From Bradyrhizobium sediminis (GTDB lineage: Bacteria; Pseudomonadota; Alphaproteobacteria; Rhizobiales; Xanthobacteraceae): a stretch of 64,000 nucleotides of DNA. Below, one piece after another: positions 23,702-33,499 of the stretch. A program made the position numbers and the translations under genes. Below the pieces are notes generated by a model. The model had not been told where the DNA came from and searched no databases. It worked only from the letters and a program-made list of their open reading frames with translations. Position 1 is the first letter of the stretch. The number at the start of each line of letters is the position of its first letter. The DNA lies in assembly GCF_018736105.1 (NCBI RefSeq), contig NZ_CP076135.1, positions 806,001 through 870,000 on the forward strand, in the 5' to 3' direction.

Positions 23702-23727
23702 AAACGGGGCCCCGAAAGGCCCCGTTT
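23702..23727 (-). terminator. Rho-independent terminator of the symporter operon
   Basis: A 10-bp perfect stem AAACGGGGCC / GGCCCCGTTT with a six-base loop. On the minus strand it is followed by TTCTTTTCC, 22 bases past the symporter stop. Confidence 0.8.
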
Positions 23728-23749
23728 GCCGAGATGTGTCGCAGTGCTC

Positions 23750-25729
23750 TTAAGTGGTCTTTTCTTCGAGCACCGTCCTGCCCCGCGGCTTGCGGATATC
23801 GTCGACGTAGGCCTGCATCTCCTTCGAAGGCTCCTTGCCCAGCTTGCTGACGATGTAGATGACAGCAAAGCCCAACGGAGTTCCCAACAATCCGCAAGCG
23901 ATATTGTTGAGGTCGAACCAGCCGACCTTGTTGGCCAGCGGATGCGCCAGTGTCGGGAAGCTCTCCATGGCGTTGGGCAACGTCATGGCCTTGGCGACAT
24001 CGGCCAGCGGCGCTCCCGTCAGCGGGTTGAGCAGCGAGGTCATGCCGAAATACTTCACACCGGCGCCCGGGAAGTAGCGGGATGTCACGAGGTAGAACAG
24101 GCAGAGTCCGAAGCCGGCAATGATGCCGCAGACCGCGCCTGTCGCCGTCGTGCGCTTCCACCAGACGCCCATCACGAGCGCCGGGAAGTTGCCGGCCATC
24201 GCCAGCGAAAACGCCCAGCCGACCATGGCCAGGATATCGCCGGGTTTGGTTGCGGCAGTCGCGGCTGCGATCACGGCAACGACGACCAGAAGACCGCGCG
24301 CCACGGTGAGCCGGCGCATGGTCGGGGCGTTGGGGTCGATCATCTTGTAGTAGACGTCGTGCGACAGCGCGTTGGCGATGGCGAGCAGCAGCCCGTCAGC
24401 GGTGGACAGCGCGGCGGCGAGACCGCCGGCGGCGACCAGACCCGAGATCACATATGGAAGTCCCGCGATCTCCGGGGTGGAGAGCACGATCACGTCGGTG
24501 TTGATCACGAAGTCCTGCAGCCTGACGACACCGGGATGACCGGCGATCGCCTTGCAGGCCGCGACGATGGCATCGATGCTGCCGGCGTTCTTGCCGCAGA
24601 TCTGGATCAGGCCGAGTTCGCCCCAATTGAAGATCCACGGTTTGAGCGCGCTGACATTGGCCCCGATGATGTTGGTGTAGACCTCCAGCTTCGAGAACGC
24701 CGCGTAGGCCGGCGCCGAGAAGTACAAGAGGAAGATGAACAACAGCGACCACGCCACCGACTGACGAGCCTCACGCACCGACGGTGTCGTGAAGTAACGC
24801 ATCAGGATATGCGGCAACGAAGCGGTGCCGACCATCATGCACATGATGATCGCAAAGAAGTTCAGCGGGCTGTAGTTGATGAACGGCGAGATGTGCGGCT
24901 TGAGGCCTGCCACGGTCGCAAGCCCGGTCGCCAGCATCTGCTGTTCCCGTGCCGTGATATCGGCAATCGCCTGTCCATAAGTGAGTTCCGGAATCGGAAA
25001 TCCGTACTTCTTGGTGGAAAGGATAACGATCGGGGTCAGATAGGCGATGATCAGCACGACGTACTGCGCGATCTGCGTCCAGGTCACCGCCCGCATGCCG
25101 CCCAGCATCGCGCAGAGCAGAATGCCGACCAGGCCCGCAAACACCGCGACCTCGAACTGCATCCCGAGGAATCGCGAGGCGATAATGCCGGTGCCGTAGA
25201 TCTGCGCCGTCACATAGGTGAAGGAACAGGCGACCAGCACGATGACGCCGAGCGCGCGCGCGAAGTTTCCGCCGTAGCGGAACGACAGGAAGTCAGGCAC
25301 GGTGTAGGCGCCGAACTTGCGCAGGTACGGCCCGATCAGGATCGACACCAGAACGAAGCCGCCGGTCCATCCGAGCACCCAGGCGATGCCGTCGTAGCCG
25401 AGCAGGAACAGGGTGCCGGCCATGCCGACAAAGGACGCCGCCGACATCCAGTCGGCGCCCGTCGCCATGCCGTTGTAGAAAGCCGGGACGCGCCGTCCGG
25501 CGACGTAATACTCCGAGACTTCAGCGGTTCGCGTCATTACGCCGATGATGGCATAGACCGCGAGCGTGAAGAACACGAAGAGGTAGCCGAGGATCTTGTT
25601 CGGAACACCCATCTGCTCCATGACGGCAAGCAGGAGGATGAACCCGATGAAGCCGCCGGTATAGGTACCGTACATCTTGCCCAGATTCTTGATGAAGTCC
25701 GAGCTGCTGGCAGAGCTTTGTGTAGCCAT
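23750..25729 (-). CDS. Sodium:solute symporter, acetate/short-carboxylate type (VC_2705-like)
   Basis: SSS-family permease (about 13 helices) of the subgroup that works with a DUF4212 small subunit and is related to ActP acetate permeases. Motifs include the early EYYVAGRRVPAFYNGMATGADWMSAASF and GYDGIAWVLGWTGGF, and the sodium-site region ALSTADGLLLAIANALSHDVYYK. The 659 or so residues include a soluble segment with Cys (LIQICGKNAG, VAACKAI) between helices. ATG 25729 follows GGGAGGAAG. It lies 14 bases after the DUF4212 gene. Which acid it carries is not shown by sequence. Confidence 0.9.
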   Translation of the reverse strand: MATQSSASSSDFIKNLGKMYGTYTGGFIGFILLLAVMEQMGVPNKILGYLFVFFTLAVYAIIGVMTRTAEVSEYYVAGRRVPAFYNGMATGADWMSAASFVGMAGTLFLLGYDGIAWVLGWTGGFVLVSILIGPYLRKFGAYTVPDFLSFRYGGNFARALGVIVLVACSFTYVTAQIYGTGIIASRFLGMQFEVAVFAGLVGILLCAMLGGMRAVTWTQIAQYVVLIIAYLTPIVILSTKKYGFPIPELTYGQAIADITAREQQMLATGLATVAGLKPHISPFINYSPLNFFAIIMCMMVGTASLPHILMRYFTTPSVREARQSVAWSLLFIFLLYFSAPAYAAFSKLEVYTNIIGANVSALKPWIFNWGELGLIQICGKNAGSIDAIVAACKAIAGHPGVVRLQDFVINTDVIVLSTPEIAGLPYVISGLVAAGGLAAALSTADGLLLAIANALSHDVYYKMIDPNAPTMRRLTVARGLLVVVAVIAAATAATKPGDILAMVGWAFSLAMAGNFPALVMGVWWKRTTATGAVCGIIAGFGLCLFYLVTSRYFPGAGVKYFGMTSLLNPLTGAPLADVAKAMTLPNAMESFPTLAHPLANKVGWFDLNNIACGLLGTPLGFAVIYIVSKLGKEPSKEMQAYVDDIRKPRGRTVLEEKTT

Positions 25730-25743
25730 GGTTTCTTCCTCCC

Positions 25744-26022
25744 TCAATCTTCCTCGGCAAAGCCGAATTCGCGGTCAATCTTGTCCTGCTGTTTTGCGAA
25801 CATGAACAGCATGACCACGAACACGATGAGCGAGCCTTGCGCGGCCATGTAGAAGCCGAGCGGGAAGTTGAGAATCGGAATCGTGATCTTGTTGAGGGGA
25901 TTCACGAACATGTGGATGATGAAGCCGAAGAAGAACCAGACACCGAGATGCGCAAACATCAGGCGCGACGTCTTGCGCCAGTGGGCTTCTTCCTTCTCTT
26001 TCATGCTTGTCGAGTCGGCCAT
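25744..26022 (-). CDS. DUF4212 small subunit of the sodium:solute symporter
   Basis: A 92-aa protein with a charged cytoplasmic N-terminus (KEKEEAHWRKTSRLM) and two helices (LGVWFFFGFIIHMFVNPL and LGFYMAAQGSLIVFVVMLFMFA). It ends in the family signature QQDKIDREFGFAEED. DUF4212/DUF485-type proteins precede their SSS permease and are thought to be obligate partners. GGAGG before ATG 26022 fits. It is the first gene of the symporter operon, divergent from the 207-aa unknown and the exonuclease-nucleotidyltransferase fusion. Confidence 0.92.
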   Translation of the reverse strand: MADSTSMKEKEEAHWRKTSRLMFAHLGVWFFFGFIIHMFVNPLNKITIPILNFPLGFYMAAQGSLIVFVVMLFMFAKQQDKIDREFGFAEED

Positions 26023-26312
26023 GGGTTGCAAATCCTCCCTCAAAGCGCCGGTCAAATACGCCGGCATTGAATGATCGAGGGGAATGCAAATCCCTTCAGT
26101 GCGGCGTCCCCCCTTGCCGCTGTTCCAACCGGTCTTTGCCGGTTTGGAAACAATCAAGGCTAACACTACAGTTGGCCGGTCCTAATTATACTTTTGGTGG
26201 GGTGTAGATTGCTGCAGTTGCTAACAGCGATGCCGCTTTGAGAACATTGAGCTTGGCAGACGGCCGATAAGCTGGCGAACTGGCCTGCGTCCATTTCGAG
26301 GATAAGACCGCG
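26023..26312. promoter_or_regulatory. Divergent control region between the symporter and its putative regulators
   Basis: This 290-base spacer separates leftward DUF4212/symporter from the rightward unknown/fusion operon. An inverted repeat TTCCAACCGG-N6-CCGGTTTGGAA (one-base bulge) lies at 26123-26149. A/T-rich sequence (CTAATTATACTTTTGG, 26181-26196) could hold a promoter. No single promoter can be assigned with confidence. Confidence 0.45.
26123..26149. promoter_or_regulatory. Inverted repeat, candidate operator for the symporter locus
   Basis: TTCCAACCGG and CCGGTTTGGAA face each other across six bases, with one unpaired T. It is centred about 115 bases upstream of the DUF4212 start, in the shared divergent region. 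A target of the nearby LuxR-type regulator is plausible but unproven. Confidence 0.35.
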
Positions 26313-26936
26313 ATGAAGCTGTTCGAAAAGTTGTTTCGCCCCCGTCCGCCGATTCGCGGCCGGGAGGCGCTGGCGGACTTCATCGACGCGCAATCGGCCT
26401 TCATCGTGCAAAAGGGAATCTATGAATATTCGCGCGCGCGTGCGGGTCACTACGCCAAGGTACTGTTTGCCGAGGAGGGATTTGCCCAATCCGTCGAGCA
26501 TGCGCGCTGGCAGGCCTTCCCGCTGGGCCTTTCGATGGTAGGCGAAATGGTCAATGGGGTGCTGACTTCCCAAGCCGACGGGATGCAGCGCCGGGAAATA
26601 CTCGACCGGCTGATCGTCGTCGTTCTCTCGGTTTTCGACCGCTATCCGGTTCCTCCATCGATCGGAGAAGAAGCCTGGCATGCAGCGCGCAACGATCTGG
26701 CGCATCGGCTCGATCTGGCCGGCGGGCACGCGCCCAAGCGCGTGATGGACATTCCCGATCCGCTGGCGGAAGCCTATTTCGCCATGATGCCGATCCACGA
26801 AAAGCTGCGCGGACGGGATTTTCAGACCACGCGCAACTATCTTCGGGTCAGCCTCTGCAACATTCATGACGAATTTGTTGCGCGCATGGACAGGGCCGTT
26901 CTGGAACGGGCTTTGACCGCGGGTGCTGCGGCATAA
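26313..26936 (+). CDS. Conserved-looking 207-aa protein of unknown function
   Basis: A soluble protein without signal or membrane segment. It is alpha-helical in character with several conserved-looking aromatic and acidic clusters (YEYSRARAGHYAKVLFAEEGF, WHAARNDLAHRLDLAGGH, YFAMMPIHEKLRGRDF). It begins MKLFEKLFRPRPPIRG, a basic-amphipathic start that could associate with membrane. It sits 14 bases upstream of the exonuclease-CBS-nucleotidyltransferase gene on the same strand and opposite the symporter. Its function is not recognised. Position suggests it belongs to the symporter control module. Confidence 0.8.
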   Translation: MKLFEKLFRPRPPIRGREALADFIDAQSAFIVQKGIYEYSRARAGHYAKVLFAEEGFAQSVEHARWQAFPLGLSMVGEMVNGVLTSQADGMQRREILDRLIVVVLSVFDRYPVPPSIGEEAWHAARNDLAHRLDLAGGHAPKRVMDIPDPLAEAYFAMMPIHEKLRGRDFQTTRNYLRVSLCNIHDEFVARMDRAVLERALTAGAAA

Positions 26937-26950
26937 TCGCGCATGAGGCG

Positions 26951-29095
26951 ATGGGAGGGGCGATGGACAGGACGAGTGGTGGCGCCCCGCTTTTGTCGCT
27001 CGACGCTGTTGTCATCGATAGCGAGACCACCGGGCTCGATCCGCGCAAGGCGCGGGTAATCGAGCTTGCCGGCGTGCGACTGACCGGCGGCAAGCTTGCC
27101 GGCGACAACTCGTTTCGCCGATTGCTGCGGCCAGCCGGCGAATTGATACCCGCCGAGACGACCCGCGTTCATGGCATCGACGACGCCATGGTCGCGGAAT
27201 CGCCGCTGTTTGCGGACGTCTGGCCGGATTTCAAGGCGTTTCTCGGCAAGGCCGTGGTGATCGGGCATACGGTCGGGTTCGACCTTGCCGTGCTGAAGCG
27301 CGAATGCGATCTCGCCGGCCTGGCCTGGACGCGTCCACGCACGCTCGACACACGGCTCTTGGCGCAGATCGCCGCGCCGGAACTGGCCGGCTATACGCTG
27401 GAGACGCTCGCCGCCTGGCTGGGTGTCGAGGCTGCCGAGCGGCATTCCGCCCTCGGCGACGCGAAGACGACCGCGCGGGTGTTTCTGGCGCTGGTGCCGA
27501 AGCTGCGCAACCACGGTATCCGGACCATCGCCGAAGCCGAACGGGCCTGCCTCGCGCTGACGTCCGTACTCGACGACCAGATGCGGATCGGCTGGATCGA
27601 TGCCGTCGAGGCTCCGGCGCGTGCCGATGCGGAACGAACTCTGGAACGCTTCGACAGCTACGCCTATCGGCATCGCAATCGCGACATCATGCGGACGCCT
27701 CCGGTCTTCGTGGAAGCCGGCATTTCGGTTCACGACGCCCTCGCGCGGCTGGCGAGAGCGAAAATATCGTCGGTTTTCGTGCGGCCGCATGCCGGTTCCG
27801 GCGGCGTCAAGGCGGCGGAGGCAGGCATTGTCACGGAACGCGATCTGCTGCGCGCGGTCGCCCGGCACGGCGCCGCCGCGCTCGACTTGCCGGTCGGGCA
27901 GATCATGAGCCGGCCGCTCGCAGCGGTATCAGCGGATGCTTTCGTCTATCGCGCAATCGGCCATATGAGCCGTCTCAAGACCCGCCATCTCGGCGTCGTC
28001 GACGAAGCCGGCCGCGTGGTCGGCGCGATGTCCGCGCGAGACCTGCTGCGGCTGCGCGCCGGCGAGGCCATATCGCTCGGCGACGAGATCGACGATGCGG
28101 CGGACGCGCACGCCCTGGCGATCGCCTGGGCCAAGCTGCCGCGGGTTGCGCAATCGCTGCTGGCGGAGGGGCTGTCCGGCCGCGACATTGCGGAAGTGAT
28201 TTCCCGCGAACTCGGCGCGCTCACCGGGCAGGCCGCGGTGATCGCCGAGCGGATCATGCGGGAGCGTGGCGAAGGCGCGCCCCCGTGCGGCTATGCCATG
28301 GTCGTGCTCGGATCCGCCGGACGCGGCGAAAGCCTGCTGGCCATGGACCAGGACAATGCCATCATTTTCGAACAAGGCGAGCCGGACGGCGACGAGGATC
28401 GCTGGTTCGCGGCGCTCGGGGCCCATGTCGCCGATATCCTGCACGAGGTCGGCGTGCCCTATTGCAAGGGTGGCGTGATGGCGAAGAACGCGGCTTGGCG
28501 CGGCTCGGTCGCAACGTGGCGAAATCGTATCGACCACTGGATCATGCGCTCCAGTCCCGGCGATCTGCTGTCGGTCGATATTTTCTTCGACCTGCGGGCC
28601 GTCCACGGCGACGGCAGCCTCGCCGTCACCGTGAGGCAGGCTGCGTTCGATGCGGCCGAGGGCCAGACCGCGTTCGCCAAGCTCCTGGTCGAGGACATCC
28701 GCACGCCTTCCAGCCTGAAATTCTTCGGCGGTATCCGCACCGTGGGTGGCCGCATCGACCTCAAGATGGCTGGACTGTTCGGCCTCGTCGCCGCGGCCCG
28801 CGCCATCGCGATCCGCCATCATGTGATGGACCGGTCGACGCCGGCGCGACTGGGCCGCGTCAAGGAGCTCGTTCACGTCAGCGAGACCGACCTCGATGCG
28901 CTGGGCGAGGCCCAGGGCGTGTTTCTGGATCTTATCGCGTCGCAACAGGTCGAGGATATCGCCCACGGGACACCGCCCTCCAACGCCGTCGCGGTGAAGC
29001 GGTTATCAGTCCGCGACCGTGATCGATTGCGCGTCGCGCTTGAAGCGGTCGCGGCCATCGATGATCTGACCCGCGATCTCCTGTTCAAGGATTGA
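26951..29095 (+). CDS. Fusion of DEDDh 3'-5' exonuclease, CBS pair and DUF294 nucleotidyltransferase
   Basis: A 714-aa three-part protein. Residues about 15-185 form a DnaQ-like exonuclease with all five DEDDh residues (D23, E25, D111, H165, D170). Residues 245-372 form a CBS pair (V-T-E-R-D-L-L-R and M-S-A-R-D-L-L-R ends), which usually senses adenine nucleotides. Residues about 435-710 are the DUF294 nucleotidyltransferase and C-terminal domain, related to GlnD, with GSAGRGE and the metal site D-Q-D (466-468) intact. In other bacteria these are commonly two neighbouring genes next to the same symporter. ATG 26963 is an alternative start after GGGAGGGG. Substrates are unknown. Confidence 0.9.
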   Translation: MGGAMDRTSGGAPLLSLDAVVIDSETTGLDPRKARVIELAGVRLTGGKLAGDNSFRRLLRPAGELIPAETTRVHGIDDAMVAESPLFADVWPDFKAFLGKAVVIGHTVGFDLAVLKRECDLAGLAWTRPRTLDTRLLAQIAAPELAGYTLETLAAWLGVEAAERHSALGDAKTTARVFLALVPKLRNHGIRTIAEAERACLALTSVLDDQMRIGWIDAVEAPARADAERTLERFDSYAYRHRNRDIMRTPPVFVEAGISVHDALARLARAKISSVFVRPHAGSGGVKAAEAGIVTERDLLRAVARHGAAALDLPVGQIMSRPLAAVSADAFVYRAIGHMSRLKTRHLGVVDEAGRVVGAMSARDLLRLRAGEAISLGDEIDDAADAHALAIAWAKLPRVAQSLLAEGLSGRDIAEVISRELGALTGQAAVIAERIMRERGEGAPPCGYAMVVLGSAGRGESLLAMDQDNAIIFEQGEPDGDEDRWFAALGAHVADILHEVGVPYCKGGVMAKNAAWRGSVATWRNRIDHWIMRSSPGDLLSVDIFFDLRAVHGDGSLAVTVRQAAFDAAEGQTAFAKLLVEDIRTPSSLKFFGGIRTVGGRIDLKMAGLFGLVAAARAIAIRHHVMDRSTPARLGRVKELVHVSETDLDALGEAQGVFLDLIASQQVEDIAHGTPPSNAVAVKRLSVRDRDRLRVALEAVAAIDDLTRDLLFKD

Positions 29096-29299
29096 GGCCG
29101 ACTCACCCGGCGCCCAATCCCCGTTTTTTGCGCTGCACAATGCCCCAGCCGTTCCCAGCCCGATTAACTGCCTTGGCGCATGCCGGGAATGTTGCCTTGC
29201 AAGAAGCTTCCTGTCAGTGGACAATCACTTTGAAAAACTCGCTTGGCAGGCCTTCTACAAAGCGGTCAAGGGTTTGCCGCAACGCTTTGCCGGAAATCA

Positions 29300-29977
29300 A
29301 TGACTGCTCCTGCCAGCACCCACCTCGTCATCGCCGATGATCATCCGCTGTTTCGCGATGCCCTGCGACAGGCGGTCGCAAGCGTCGTAGCCTCGGCGAA
29401 GGTCGACGAAGCCGGCACCTTCGATGAACTGACCGCGCTGCTCGAGCAGGATTCCGATGTCGACCTGGTGCTGCTCGATCTGACGATGCCGGGCATCTCG
29501 GGCTTCTCCGGCCTGATTTACCTGCGCGCGCAATATCCGGCGATCCCCGTGGTGATCGTCTCCGCCAGCGACGATGCCGGTACGATCCGCCGCTCGCTGG
29601 ATTTCGGCGCCTCCGGTTTCATTCCCAAGCGGTTCGGGATCGAGACGCTGCGCGACGCGATCAAGAAGGTCATGGACGGCGACGTCTGGATACCGCCGGA
29701 CACCGATCTCTCATCCACCGCCGACCCCGACATGACCCGCCTGCGCGACCGGCTGGTGACGCTGACCCCGCAGCAGGTGAGGGTGCTGATGATGCTGTCG
29801 GAAGGTTTGCTCAACAAGCAGATTGCCTATGAGCTCGGGGTGTCGGAAGCGACCATCAAGGCGCATGTGTCGGCGATCCTGCAAAAGCTGGGCGTCGAGA
29901 GCCGCACCCAGGCCGTTATCGCAGCGGCAAAAATTTCCGGCGGCCAGTGGCGGCAGGGCACGCCGTCGGCGCAGTAG
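29300..29977 (+). CDS. LuxR-type response regulator (CrbR-like)
   Basis: Two-component output protein of 225 aa. An N-terminal receiver has the acidic pair IADDHP, the phospho-acceptor aspartate in LVLLDLTMPG, and the switch lysine in GFIPKR. The C-terminal helix-turn-helix reads LTPQQVRVLMMLSEGLLNKQIAYELGVSEATIKAHVSAILQKLGV, quoted here only as the span from about residue 155. ATG 29300 begins M-T-A-P; an upstream frame to 29243 lacks a site. It faces the hybrid kinase end to end, a layout that fits the CrbS/CrbR acetate-switch pair. Confidence 0.9.
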   Translation: MTAPASTHLVIADDHPLFRDALRQAVASVVASAKVDEAGTFDELTALLEQDSDVDLVLLDLTMPGISGFSGLIYLRAQYPAIPVVIVSASDDAGTIRRSLDFGASGFIPKRFGIETLRDAIKKVMDGDVWIPPDTDLSSTADPDMTRLRDRLVTLTPQQVRVLMMLSEGLLNKQIAYELGVSEATIKAHVSAILQKLGVESRTQAVIAAAKISGGQWRQGTPSAQ

Positions 29978-29989
29978 ATCAGGCCAGCG

Positions 29990-32900
29990 CTACTCCGCGG
30001 CCACCATCTGCTGGGTGCGCCACTGACCGAGCAGCGCGCGTAGCGATGCCGGCTTGACCGGCTTGTTGAGCACCGCAATTTTCTCCTCCCGCGCCGCAGC
30101 CTGCACATGCGGACTGCGATCGGCGGTGATCAGGATCGCCGGAATGTTGTCGCCGAACCGGCGGCGGATTTCCCGGATCGCGGCGACGCCGTTGCCGCGG
30201 TCGAGATGATAATCGACCAGAAGGCCGGTGACCCTCCTGCCGGCGGCTTCGATCGCCTCGATCGCGGCATCGGGGTCGGCGACCGCGATCACCTCGGCGT
30301 CCCAGGCCGTCAGCAGCGTCTTCATGCCGTCCAGGATCGCGGGATCGTTCTCGATGCAAACGATCAGCGAGCCGCTCATCGGAGTCCGCGATAGCGGCGT
30401 CGCGCTGGTGACCGCCGCGGTGTGATTGACGGCGCTGGCGATCGGCACCGTCACCGAAAAGCACGAACCGCCGCCGGCATTGGAGTCGAGCGCGAGGCCG
30501 TGGTTGAGCACGCGCGCCAGGCGCTCGACGATCGACAGTCCGAGCCCGAGGCCGCGCGCGATCCGCGCGCCCTGTTCGAGCCGGTGAAACTCCTTGAAGA
30601 TCTCGCCGCGCTTGACGAAGGGAATGCCGACGCCGGTGTCATAGACGGCGATCTGAAGCGACTGGCCGTGACGCCGGCAGCCGACCAGCACGCGCCCGCG
30701 CGGGGTATATTTGATGGCGTTGGAAATCAGGTTCTGCAGCAGCCGGCGCAGCATCAGGCGATCGGATTCGACCGGCAGCGAACACGGCATGAAGGTCAGC
30801 TTCAGCGCCTTGGCCCTGGCAATCGGCGCAAATTCGATCTCGAGCGAACGCATCATGTCGCCGATCTTGAAGCTCGAGATCGATGGCGTCATGGCGCCGG
30901 CGTCGAGCCGCGAGATGTCCAATAGCGCGCCCAGGATCTCCTCGATCGCCTCCAGCGAATCGTCGATGTTTTCCACCAGCCGGGAATCCTCACCGCCGTT
31001 CTGGCGCTCCACCAGGCTCGTCACGTAGAGCCGCGCCGCATTGAGCGGCTGCAGGATGTCGTGGCTCGCCGCCGCCAGGAAGCGGGTCTTCGAGATGTTG
31101 GCGTCCTCGGCGGTGCTTTTCGCCAGCGCCAGTTCCGAATTCAGCCGGGTGAGTTCCTCGGTGCGGTCGCGCACGCGCTTTTCGAGGGTCGCATTGGCGC
31201 GTTCCAGCGCTTCGGCCGCTTCGAAGGAGGGGGTGACGTCGGAAAAGGTGATGACCAGCCCGCCGCCGGGCATCCGGTTGGAGCGCACCTCGATCACCAT
31301 GTGACGGTCCGGCAGCCGTTCCAGGTAGGATTCGCCTTCGGTGGTATAGGCGGCCAGGCGCTTCTCCACGAGAGCCTCGTCGTAGCCGGAATCCGGGAAA
31401 CTGATCGATCCCATGAATTCGAGGATTTCCCGCAACGGAATTCCGATCTGCACGAGGTGCAGCGGCAACCCGAGGATTTCGCCGAACTGCCGGTTGGAAC
31501 AGATCAGCTGCAGCTCGGCGTCGAACACCGCGATGCCCTGCCGCACATGGTTGAGCGCGGTCTGCAGGATCTCGCGGTTGAAATGCAGCGCGGCGTGAGA
31601 ATCGTCGAGCAGCTTGAGCGCGGCCTTGGCGGAGACGGTGCGCTTGCGCAACAGCAGCGACATCACCAGCCGCGAGGAGGCCGCCCCGATCGACGAGGCG
31701 ATCAGATGCTCGGCATGCTGCAGCAATTCGAAGTCGGCCGTCGCGGCCGGATCGAGAATCGTGTTGCGGGCGACGGCGAAGGCCTCGAACGAATGGCGGG
31801 CGCGCTCGGGGCCGAGATACTGCGCCACCGTGCTCTGGATGTCCTGCACGGTCACGGTGGTGCGCCAGCGCCGGAACGTCGGCGTCATCGGCGCCAGCGC
31901 GTTAGGCGCAAACAGGTCCGCCTGCAGCCGCTCGATCGAGGACGGCTGGCGCGCCAGCGACAGCACGAGATAGGCCAACAGGTTGAGCGAGAGCGACCAC
32001 AATACGCCATGCAGCAGCGGCGGCAGGTCGGCGCCGAACAAGGCCCGCGGACGCAACGCCTCGATGCCGAACGGACCGTGCTGCAGCAGCAGCATGCCGG
32101 CGGTGTTGCCTTCCAGGAAGCTCGGAAGGAACAGCGTGTAGGTCCAGACCGCGGCGCCGACCAGCATGCCGCCCATGGCGCCCCGCGCGGTGGCGCGGCG
32201 CCAGAACAGCCCGCCGAAGAACGACGGTGCGAGCTGCGCGACGGCCGCGAATGACAGCAGTCCGATCGACGCCAGCTGGGCGTTACCCAGCGCGCGATAG
32301 TAGAGATAGGCCATCACCATGATGGCGAAGATCGCGAGGCGGCGGACCCTGAGCAGGAAGTCGCCGAAATCCTTGCGGCCCGCACGCGACTCCGGGCTTC
32401 GCTGCAACACCAGCGGCACCACGATATCGTTCGAGACCATGATCGAAAGCGCGACGCATTCCACGATCACCATGGCGGTCGCCGCCGACAGGCCTCCGAT
32501 GAAGACGACGACGCTGAGCAAGGGAGAATCCGCCTTCATCGGCAGCGCAAGCACGTACATGTCGCTGTCGACGGCGCCGAACGGGAAGGTCACAAGCCCG
32601 GCGATCGCGATCGGAATCACGAACAGGTTGATGGCGACCAGATACAGCGGAAACAGCCAGCGCGCCCGGCCGACCTCGGCGTCGCTGGAATTCTCGACCA
32701 CGCTGACGTGAAACTGCCGCGGCAGCAGCATGATCGCGAAGAACGACAGCAACGTCATGGTGGCGAAATTGCCGATCGATGGCGTGTACTCGATGGCTCG
32801 CACCGCCTCCGGGCTCTTCATCGCGCGTTCGATCAATTCCACCGGGCCGAACATCCAGAAGGTGACGAAGGCGCCGGCGGCGATAAACGCCACCAGCTTG

Positions 32901-33499
32901 ACGATGGATTCGGTGGCGACCGCCAGCATCAGGCCGTGCTGATGTTCGGTCGCGTCGGTCTGGCGGGTGCCGAACAGCACCGCGAACACCGCCATCGCCA
33001 GCGTGACGATCAGGGCGATATCGCCGATCAGCGGCATCGAGGAGAAGATCTGGTCTTCGCTCAGGATCGTTCCGAGCGAGGAGGCCACGGCCTTGAGCTG
33101 CAGCGCGATGTAGGGCACCGAGCCGACGATCGCGATGGCTGCGACGGTGGCGGCGACCGCCTGGCTCTTGCCGTAGCGCGCGGCGATGAAGTCGGCGATC
33201 GAGGTGATGTTCTGCGATTTCGCCAGCTTGATGACGCGGCGCAGCAGCGGCGTGCCGAGCGCGATCATCAGCACCGGGCCGATGTAGATCGCGAGAAAAT
33301 CGACGCTGGTGCGGGTGGCGAATCCGACCGAGCCGAAGAAGGTCCAGGACGTGCAGTAGATCGCCAGCGACAGCGGATAGATCAACGCGCTGGCGCGGCC
33401 GCGCTGGGTCGGCGAGAGGCGGTCGCCGTAGCTGGCGACGAGGAACAGGAAGCCGATGTAGCCGAACGCGGCTGCGATCACGCCCCAGTCATGCAGCAT
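29990..33499 (-). CDS. SSS-STAC-PAS hybrid sensor kinase (CrbS-like)
   Basis: A 1169-aa membrane sensor. The first 480 or so residues are a complete SSS-transporter-like domain (GYIGFLFLVASYGDR start, about 13 helices). A STAC linker follows (from TFRRWRTTVTVQDIQ). A PAS domain (AVFDAELQLICSNRQFGEILG) and a coiled coil come next. Then come HisKA with the phospho-histidine in AAASHDILQPLNAARL, HATPase_c (NLISNAIKYTPRG, DTGVGIP), and a C-terminal receiver with its aspartate in LLVDYHLDRG. Relatives (CrbS, CbrA) couple substrate sensing by the transporter domain to acetate or histidine regulation. It converges with the response regulator, 12 bases apart. Confidence 0.92.
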   Translation of the reverse strand: MLHDWGVIAAAFGYIGFLFLVASYGDRLSPTQRGRASALIYPLSLAIYCTSWTFFGSVGFATRTSVDFLAIYIGPVLMIALGTPLLRRVIKLAKSQNITSIADFIAARYGKSQAVAATVAAIAIVGSVPYIALQLKAVASSLGTILSEDQIFSSMPLIGDIALIVTLAMAVFAVLFGTRQTDATEHQHGLMLAVATESIVKLVAFIAAGAFVTFWMFGPVELIERAMKSPEAVRAIEYTPSIGNFATMTLLSFFAIMLLPRQFHVSVVENSSDAEVGRARWLFPLYLVAINLFVIPIAIAGLVTFPFGAVDSDMYVLALPMKADSPLLSVVVFIGGLSAATAMVIVECVALSIMVSNDIVVPLVLQRSPESRAGRKDFGDFLLRVRRLAIFAIMVMAYLYYRALGNAQLASIGLLSFAAVAQLAPSFFGGLFWRRATARGAMGGMLVGAAVWTYTLFLPSFLEGNTAGMLLLQHGPFGIEALRPRALFGADLPPLLHGVLWSLSLNLLAYLVLSLARQPSSIERLQADLFAPNALAPMTPTFRRWRTTVTVQDIQSTVAQYLGPERARHSFEAFAVARNTILDPAATADFELLQHAEHLIASSIGAASSRLVMSLLLRKRTVSAKAALKLLDDSHAALHFNREILQTALNHVRQGIAVFDAELQLICSNRQFGEILGLPLHLVQIGIPLREILEFMGSISFPDSGYDEALVEKRLAAYTTEGESYLERLPDRHMVIEVRSNRMPGGGLVITFSDVTPSFEAAEALERANATLEKRVRDRTEELTRLNSELALAKSTAEDANISKTRFLAAASHDILQPLNAARLYVTSLVERQNGGEDSRLVENIDDSLEAIEEILGALLDISRLDAGAMTPSISSFKIGDMMRSLEIEFAPIARAKALKLTFMPCSLPVESDRLMLRRLLQNLISNAIKYTPRGRVLVGCRRHGQSLQIAVYDTGVGIPFVKRGEIFKEFHRLEQGARIARGLGLGLSIVERLARVLNHGLALDSNAGGGSCFSVTVPIASAVNHTAAVTSATPLSRTPMSGSLIVCIENDPAILDGMKTLLTAWDAEVIAVADPDAAIEAIEAAGRRVTGLLVDYHLDRGNGVAAIREIRRRFGDNIPAILITADRSPHVQAAAREEKIAVLNKPVKPASLRALLGQWRTQQMVAAE

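Follow-up and report, generated by a model that had tools for sequence, protein, structure and literature searches.

The window analyzed here is a 64,000-nucleotide stretch of the Bradyrhizobium sediminis genome (NZ_CP076135.1, positions 806,001 to 870,000 of the forward strand), a single contig of 5.45 Mb whose closest named relatives are Bradyrhizobium. It contains a gene for a 714-aa protein (26951..29095, plus strand) in which a DEDDh exonuclease, two CBS stretches, a DUF294 nucleotidyltransferase, and a DUF294_C domain are joined in one chain, as assigned by Pfam and by catalytic residues. The large subunit of an SSS sodium/solute symporter of the VC_2705 family (23750..25747) and its DUF4212 small subunit (25744..26166 as a mechanically called open reading frame) are encoded on the minus strand. 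Divergently transcribed on the plus strand are U207, a 207-aa all-helical protein of no known family (26313..26936), the fusion, and a LuxR-type response regulator resembling ErdR/CrbR (29243..29977), and a hybrid histidine kinase gene (29990..33499, minus strand) converges on them. This is the arrangement described in a first-pass annotation, in which DUF4212 and SSS genes diverge from a 207-aa unknown and the 714-aa protein. The two symporter genes are adjacent and both products score over curated cut-offs for the VC_2705/DUF4212 two-subunit type (PF00474, E 2.9e-57, and TIGR03648, 670 bits against 320.75, for the large subunit; PF13937, 88 bits against 30, and TIGR03647, 81 bits against 26, for DUF4212). 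The DUF4212 gene likely starts at an ATG near 26022, and counting from there ∼290 bp separate the divergent genes; distances between genes were otherwise measured on stop-to-stop frames.

The fusion places the DEDDh (RNase_T) domain first (27008..27484, residues 20 to 178; PF00929, E 1.6e-31), followed by the CBS stretches, the DUF294 nucleotidyltransferase core (28133..28558, residues 395 to 536; PF03445), and the DUF294_C helical substrate-binding domain (28673..29056, residues 575 to 702; PF10335, E 1.3e-24), so that the CBS stretches lie between the two enzyme domains. The exonuclease, CBS, and DUF294 motifs are intact, as had been noted from the sequence: all five DEDDh residues are present (D23, E25, D111, H165, and D170), as are G454, S455, D466, D468, and D547 of the nucleotidyltransferase. 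The Pol-beta core pattern GS...DxD...D is conserved across an alignment of 178 rows, which some genes enter twice from overlapping loci (G454 and S455 in all 178, D466 and D468 in 177, D547 in 169 with E in 7). Among 166 aligned exonuclease rows, D23, E25, and H165 are found in 166, D170 in 165, and D111 in 123. The nearest folds to a predicted model of DUF294 are GlnE and another protein AMPylase, and the model has a helical substrate-binding domain behind the nucleotidyltransferase core and a GlnE-type overall fold, in keeping with the earlier suggestion of a GlnD-like enzyme. Pfam detected a single PF03445 stretch and no second, opposing nucleotidyltransferase domain in the fusion, which has the DEDDh domain instead. 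The protein may therefore work like GlnE, but we do not class it as GlnE.

The fusion is no assembly accident, because the best 120 of 3,265 matched homologues share its four Pfam domains and relatives were retrieved from 35 further loci; contig ends truncate three of these loci (L026, L031, and L032). In a DUF294 tree, the truncated L031 groups with the 38 fused sequences in one clade (support of 0.991, FastTree, midpoint rooted). A single fusion origin is the simplest reading of this clade, which bears out the expectation that covalent fusion reflects a strong functional link. Full-length fusions also occur in 22 of 117 genomes of the window's genus, with 74 to 100% identity across nearly all 714 residues, and the next matches in the genus are partial and at most 37% identical. 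On these grounds a chance fusion was rejected along with assembly error.

DUF294 and the exonuclease form one device well beyond the fusion. A survey of 249 Pseudomonadota genomes gave 137 true DUF294 matches in 96 genomes among the matches listed, after matches below 38 bits were dropped as GlnD/GlnE-like (the next match up scored 112 bits). One gene with an internal stop (L140) was left unclassified. Of the other 136 genes, 6 have the dedicated DEDDh exonuclease fused, 112 have it less than 1 kb away on the same strand, 8 have it farther away or on the opposite strand, and 10 lack it, so that 118 of 136 are fused or adjacent. The exonuclease profile found only nine matches in 1.54 Mb of farther flank. 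Against the 249 genomes, its best rows included 122 matches of at least 150 bits, all within DUF294 genomes and 120 of them less than 10 kb from a DUF294 gene; 93 of the 96 DUF294 genomes have the dedicated exonuclease by this search, and the top score in any DUF294-free genome was 147.7 bits among the matches listed. The profile leans towards DUF294-linked genes because it was built from such genes. DUF294 has a near-obligate partner in its own exonuclease. Other architectures were also seen. At L156 (10656-12788), L106 (13412-15568), and similar loci, a ∼710-aa protein carries the exonuclease at its C-terminal end and has a shorter DUF294 protein nearby; the L106 protein has a weak PAS match, and the L156 locus adds a lone receiver and a kinase. 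The DUF294 protein of L092 (8750-11308) carries Cache and PAS sensor domains and has no CBS match, and the retrieved flank gave no exonuclease-profile match. A DUF294 frame of similar length at L110 (876 aa) lies near a weaker BCCT-profile match.

The paired genes keep company with sodium-coupled transporters. A symporter small subunit, either DUF4212 or the DUF485 of ActP-type symporters, is carried by 94 of 96 DUF294 genomes versus 28 of 153 without DUF294 (Fisher 4e-40; 56 of 58 genera), counts that leave out three rows scoring under cut-off, one for DUF4212 and two for DUF485; the two exceptions are G205 and G008. DUF294 lies less than 10 kb from DUF4212 in 52 of 79 cases, where ∼0.5 would be expected for 4-Mb genomes, and DUF485 is near DUF294 in 28 of 64. 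Symporter-free loci numbered 37, with 220 neighbor open reading frames, and a domain check of 93 proteins from 22 of these loci identified nine as BCCT transporters (Pfam; individual proteins not named). Across all 136 DUF294 genes, with a BCCT profile whose seeds were chosen by a BCCT sequence signature, transporters of the SSS type were found within 6 kb of 83 genes and of the BCCT type within 6 kb of 12, with one gene near both. This suggests that SSS symporters are not the only transporters served by the module. BCCT-profile transporters lie less than 1 kb from the DUF294/exonuclease pair at L055, L060, L061, L063, L066, L067, L083, L085, and L125. Overall, we consider it very probable that the module is a dedicated regulator of sodium-coupled transporters.

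The fusion itself follows the same pattern. DUF4212 was found within 23 of 35 retrieved fusion loci, and 11 of the remaining 12, L032 among them, are in genomes with DUF4212 elsewhere; none was retrieved from the genome of L031. Two of these, L022 and L028, are Rhodobacteraceae loci whose fusion genes lie away from the symporter in genomes with DUF4212 elsewhere, at L022 near cytochrome bc1 and chorismate synthase genes. All six genomes with a fused DUF294 in the phylum survey have DUF4212. Within the window's genus, the fusion is present in 22 of 23 DUF4212 genomes and in 0 of 94 others, with the fusion and DUF4212 genes divergent and 2.2 kb apart. The association of fused or split exonuclease/DUF294 genes with DUF4212 symporters, anticipated in the first-pass annotation, is thus beyond chance both phylum-wide and within the genus. 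In the exceptional genome, G338 (L219, 4297-11966), SSS, DUF4212, U207, regulator, and kinase are kept and only the fusion is gone. A second DUF4212/SSS locus in G361 (L220, 6858-9098), where SSS appears as two frames-apart tblastn pieces, has no fusion within the 18 kb read. Since both symporter loci lack it, the fusion belongs with the transporter as a closely linked accessory, not as a structural part.

The other neighbors differ in how closely they are tied to the symporter. At E 0.01, neither Pfam nor NCBIfam gave a family match for U207, and its AF2 model (pLDDT of 90) gave no convincing fold match in the PDB. An iterated profile found U207 in all 23 DUF4212-holding fusion loci and beside two of the five remote DUF4212 genes retrieved, some members being merely 15 to 22% identical to the U207 of the window. 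From this distribution, U207 follows the symporter. A LuxR-type regulator and a hybrid kinase do adjoin, as had been noted, and the kinase carries PAS_7, HisKA, HATPase, and REC in one chain, all over Pfam cut-offs (NF041832, 420 bits against 400). The symporter half that had been ascribed to the kinase was less clear: a simple hydropathy script gave 13 hydrophobic segments across the first 640 residues, and this half was unmatched by Pfam SSF at E 0.01 and had weak tblastn matches to SSS symporters (26% identity, E 4e-4); the symporter-half profile used on it was possibly built in part from such kinases. The regulator scores 249 bits with the ErdR model (NF041830), under the cut-off of 390. 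Of the 23 DUF4212-holding fusion loci, some of which stop at contig edges, 12 carry the regulator and 10 the kinase. All seven same-genus genomes of the phylum sample encode an ErdR-like regulator with a comparable score, while symporter and fusion are present in three. The two-component system is thus adjacent in the window, but it is a looser partner than had been supposed, because the regulator persists in the four genomes that lack symporter and fusion.

Between the divergent genes lies a conserved block, AATTATACTTTTGGTGGGG (26184..26202), with ACTTTYGG common to 12 of 13 aligned Bradyrhizobium-type intergenic regions; the motif was not found in the odd one, L007. The block is a possible promoter or regulator site. 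A single published query of Gammaproteobacterial origin, the ACTU promoter sequence, gave no matches in the window with up to three mismatches, and the block is also unlike this query.

We propose that the fusion regulates the neighboring sodium-coupled carboxylate symporter as an accessory protein and would act as a self-contained GlnE. The DUF294/DUF294_C half would add a nucleotide, most likely AMP, to a protein and turn uptake down; the DEDDh half would cut the phosphodiester bond, remove the nucleotide, and turn uptake back on; and the CBS pair would set the balance of writer and eraser from the nucleotide state, joined in at least some split relatives by a cyclic-nucleotide domain. The target would most likely be the transporter assembly itself. 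The reactions, nucleotide, target, direction of control, and CBS ligand are all predictions. Loss of the eraser would let the mark build up and uptake drop, and loss of the writer would remove the inhibition. Published genetics in Pseudomonas putida can be read in these terms: growth on pyruvate was slowed by deleting the exonuclease gene pp_0353 or actP-I, but not by deleting the CBS/DUF294-type pp_0354 (Henriquez 2022, PMC9927547). This asymmetry would follow directly if an inhibitory nucleotidyltransferase is opposed by the exonuclease, and in our own reading it fits a writer/eraser switch. Where writer and eraser are lost together, as in G338, the loss should be tolerated. That a nuclease can erase AMPylation is shown by RNase Z, which is a deAMPylase (PMC12663964). 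DUF294 proteins have been termed putative nucleotidyltransferases, with no target assigned in the excerpts available, and nucleotidylation was cited as a predicted role of Pflu5625 by Sepulveda and Lupas (2017; PMC5715377). The idea of a new way to gate a transporter was therefore partly anticipated, for nucleotidylation in that study and for an exonuclease, ActP-I, and pyruvate in Henriquez 2022. The fusion itself was named in none of the titles and abstract openings listed by the literature searches, one of which listed 25 of 581 matches.

Several observations weigh against this proposal. Neither SSS nor BCCT lies within 6 kb of 42 of the 136 DUF294 genes, and in 42 of 166 exonuclease rows the residue aligned with D111 is Glu. 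The presence of DUF294 is tracked by no Tyr, Ser, Thr, His, or Lys of the DUF4212, DUF485, and SSS subunits, although four other DUF4212 alignment columns do differ between genomes with and without DUF294. In published work, pflu5625 or actP deletion was negligible for acetate in Pseudomonas fluorescens (PMC5715377), PA3234 deletion was without effect on propionate in Pseudomonas aeruginosa (PMC9765439), and RNase T, the DEDDh archetype, failed to deAMPylate SelO substrates in the same study as RNase Z. The pp_0354 null phenotype can also mean redundancy or no role, and both nucleotidylation and its target are predictions. DUF4212 was rejected as the sole target, and as the specific target, the form first suggested, it is not supported: no acceptor residue tracks the module, and many pairs adjoin DUF485/ActP or BCCT transporters. 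Glu at exonuclease column 111 includes several exonucleases beside BCCT transporters. On balance, DUF294 is probably a protein nucleotidyltransferase, and a role of the exonuclease as eraser is somewhat less likely than not. The full mechanism, with inhibitory nucleotidylation of the symporter assembly, a DEDDh eraser, and CBS control, is put forward tentatively, at somewhat short of even chances. Rather unlikely as a whole is the broadest form, in which both SSS (with small subunits) and BCCT transporters are reversibly switched by nucleotidylation and a DEDDh fold was turned into a dedicated de-nucleotidylase and fused once to a GlnE-like writer in a mainly alphaproteobacterial lineage.

The same chemistry might act on another protein, such as the kinase, the regulator, U207, or a metabolic enzyme. 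Tyr39 of U207 is invariant across all 25 aligned sequences, U207 accompanies DUF4212, and the symporter offers no acceptor residue that stands out; set against this, one of the 137 DUF294 loci (L137) holds U207 without a fusion, and the ErdR-like regulator occurs without the module in four of seven same-genus genomes. We regard another target as unlikely. It is improbable that the pair works on RNA, with the exonuclease trimming or degrading carboxylate-metabolism transcripts or tRNA and the nucleotidyltransferase adding 3' nucleotides. DEDDh enzymes are mostly nucleases, and mRNA decay by pp_0353 was proposed in P. putida, with other mechanisms left open (PMC9927547). In a quite improbable variant, somewhat like Hailong, the transporter would be gated by a free nucleotide or a short oligonucleotide, made by DUF294 and destroyed by the DEDDh domain. 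DEDDh oligoribonuclease cleaves short oligonucleotides, and HalB is a weaker fold match to the DUF294 model, the titles of its solved structures mentioning a dATP analogue or oligodeoxyadenylate. Mere co-regulation by an acetate/pyruvate two-component system is very improbable: pp_0354 and the yjcH-actP-I operon of P. putida both have ErdR-bound promoters (PMC8402216), but co-occurrence persists where the genes are unlinked (11 of 12 fusion loci), at loci without kinase or regulator in the retrieved flank, and at BCCT transporters. A defense or toxin role seems unlikely from the neighbors, although no dedicated defense-system search was made.

The question of what DUF294 does is narrowed by its near-obligate association with a dedicated exonuclease and with a sodium-coupled transporter, and the module may be an unrecognized on/off switch for nutrient uptake. 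If the proposed reversible nucleotidylation is correct, carboxylate uptake would be under posttranslational control atop CrbS/R transcription, and a second nuclease fold would serve as a deAMPylase.

Among known systems, GlnE is predicted to share the nucleotidyltransferase plus helical C-domain fold with DUF294/DUF294_C, and it unites writer and eraser in one chain (PMC12663964), as proposed for the fusion. GlnE does so with two nucleotidyltransferase domains and a nitrogen-responsive joining part, whereas the fusion has DEDDh as its second activity and CBS between the enzymes. Reversible AMPylation by SelO and RNase Z likewise uses a nuclease as deAMPylase, but the folds and targets differ. 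The nearest split counterparts in the excerpts available are pp_0354/pp_0353 of P. putida and Pflu5625 of P. fluorescens, in which a CBS protein and an adjacent RNase_T exonuclease are separate genes under MxtR/ErdR (CrbS/R). Pflu5625 is annotated with a cAMP-binding domain (PMC5715377), whereas Pfam finds none in the fusion, and the PAO1 and NCTC10783 homologues adjoin actP/yjcH, not DUF4212. The two-component genes resemble CrbS/CrbR and RpuS/RpuR in their LuxR-type regulator and in a kinase with a many-segment membrane half, PAS, HisKA, HATPase, and REC; they differ in that the regulator falls under the ErdR cut-off and in that symporter, kinase, and regulator genes are adjacent in the window.

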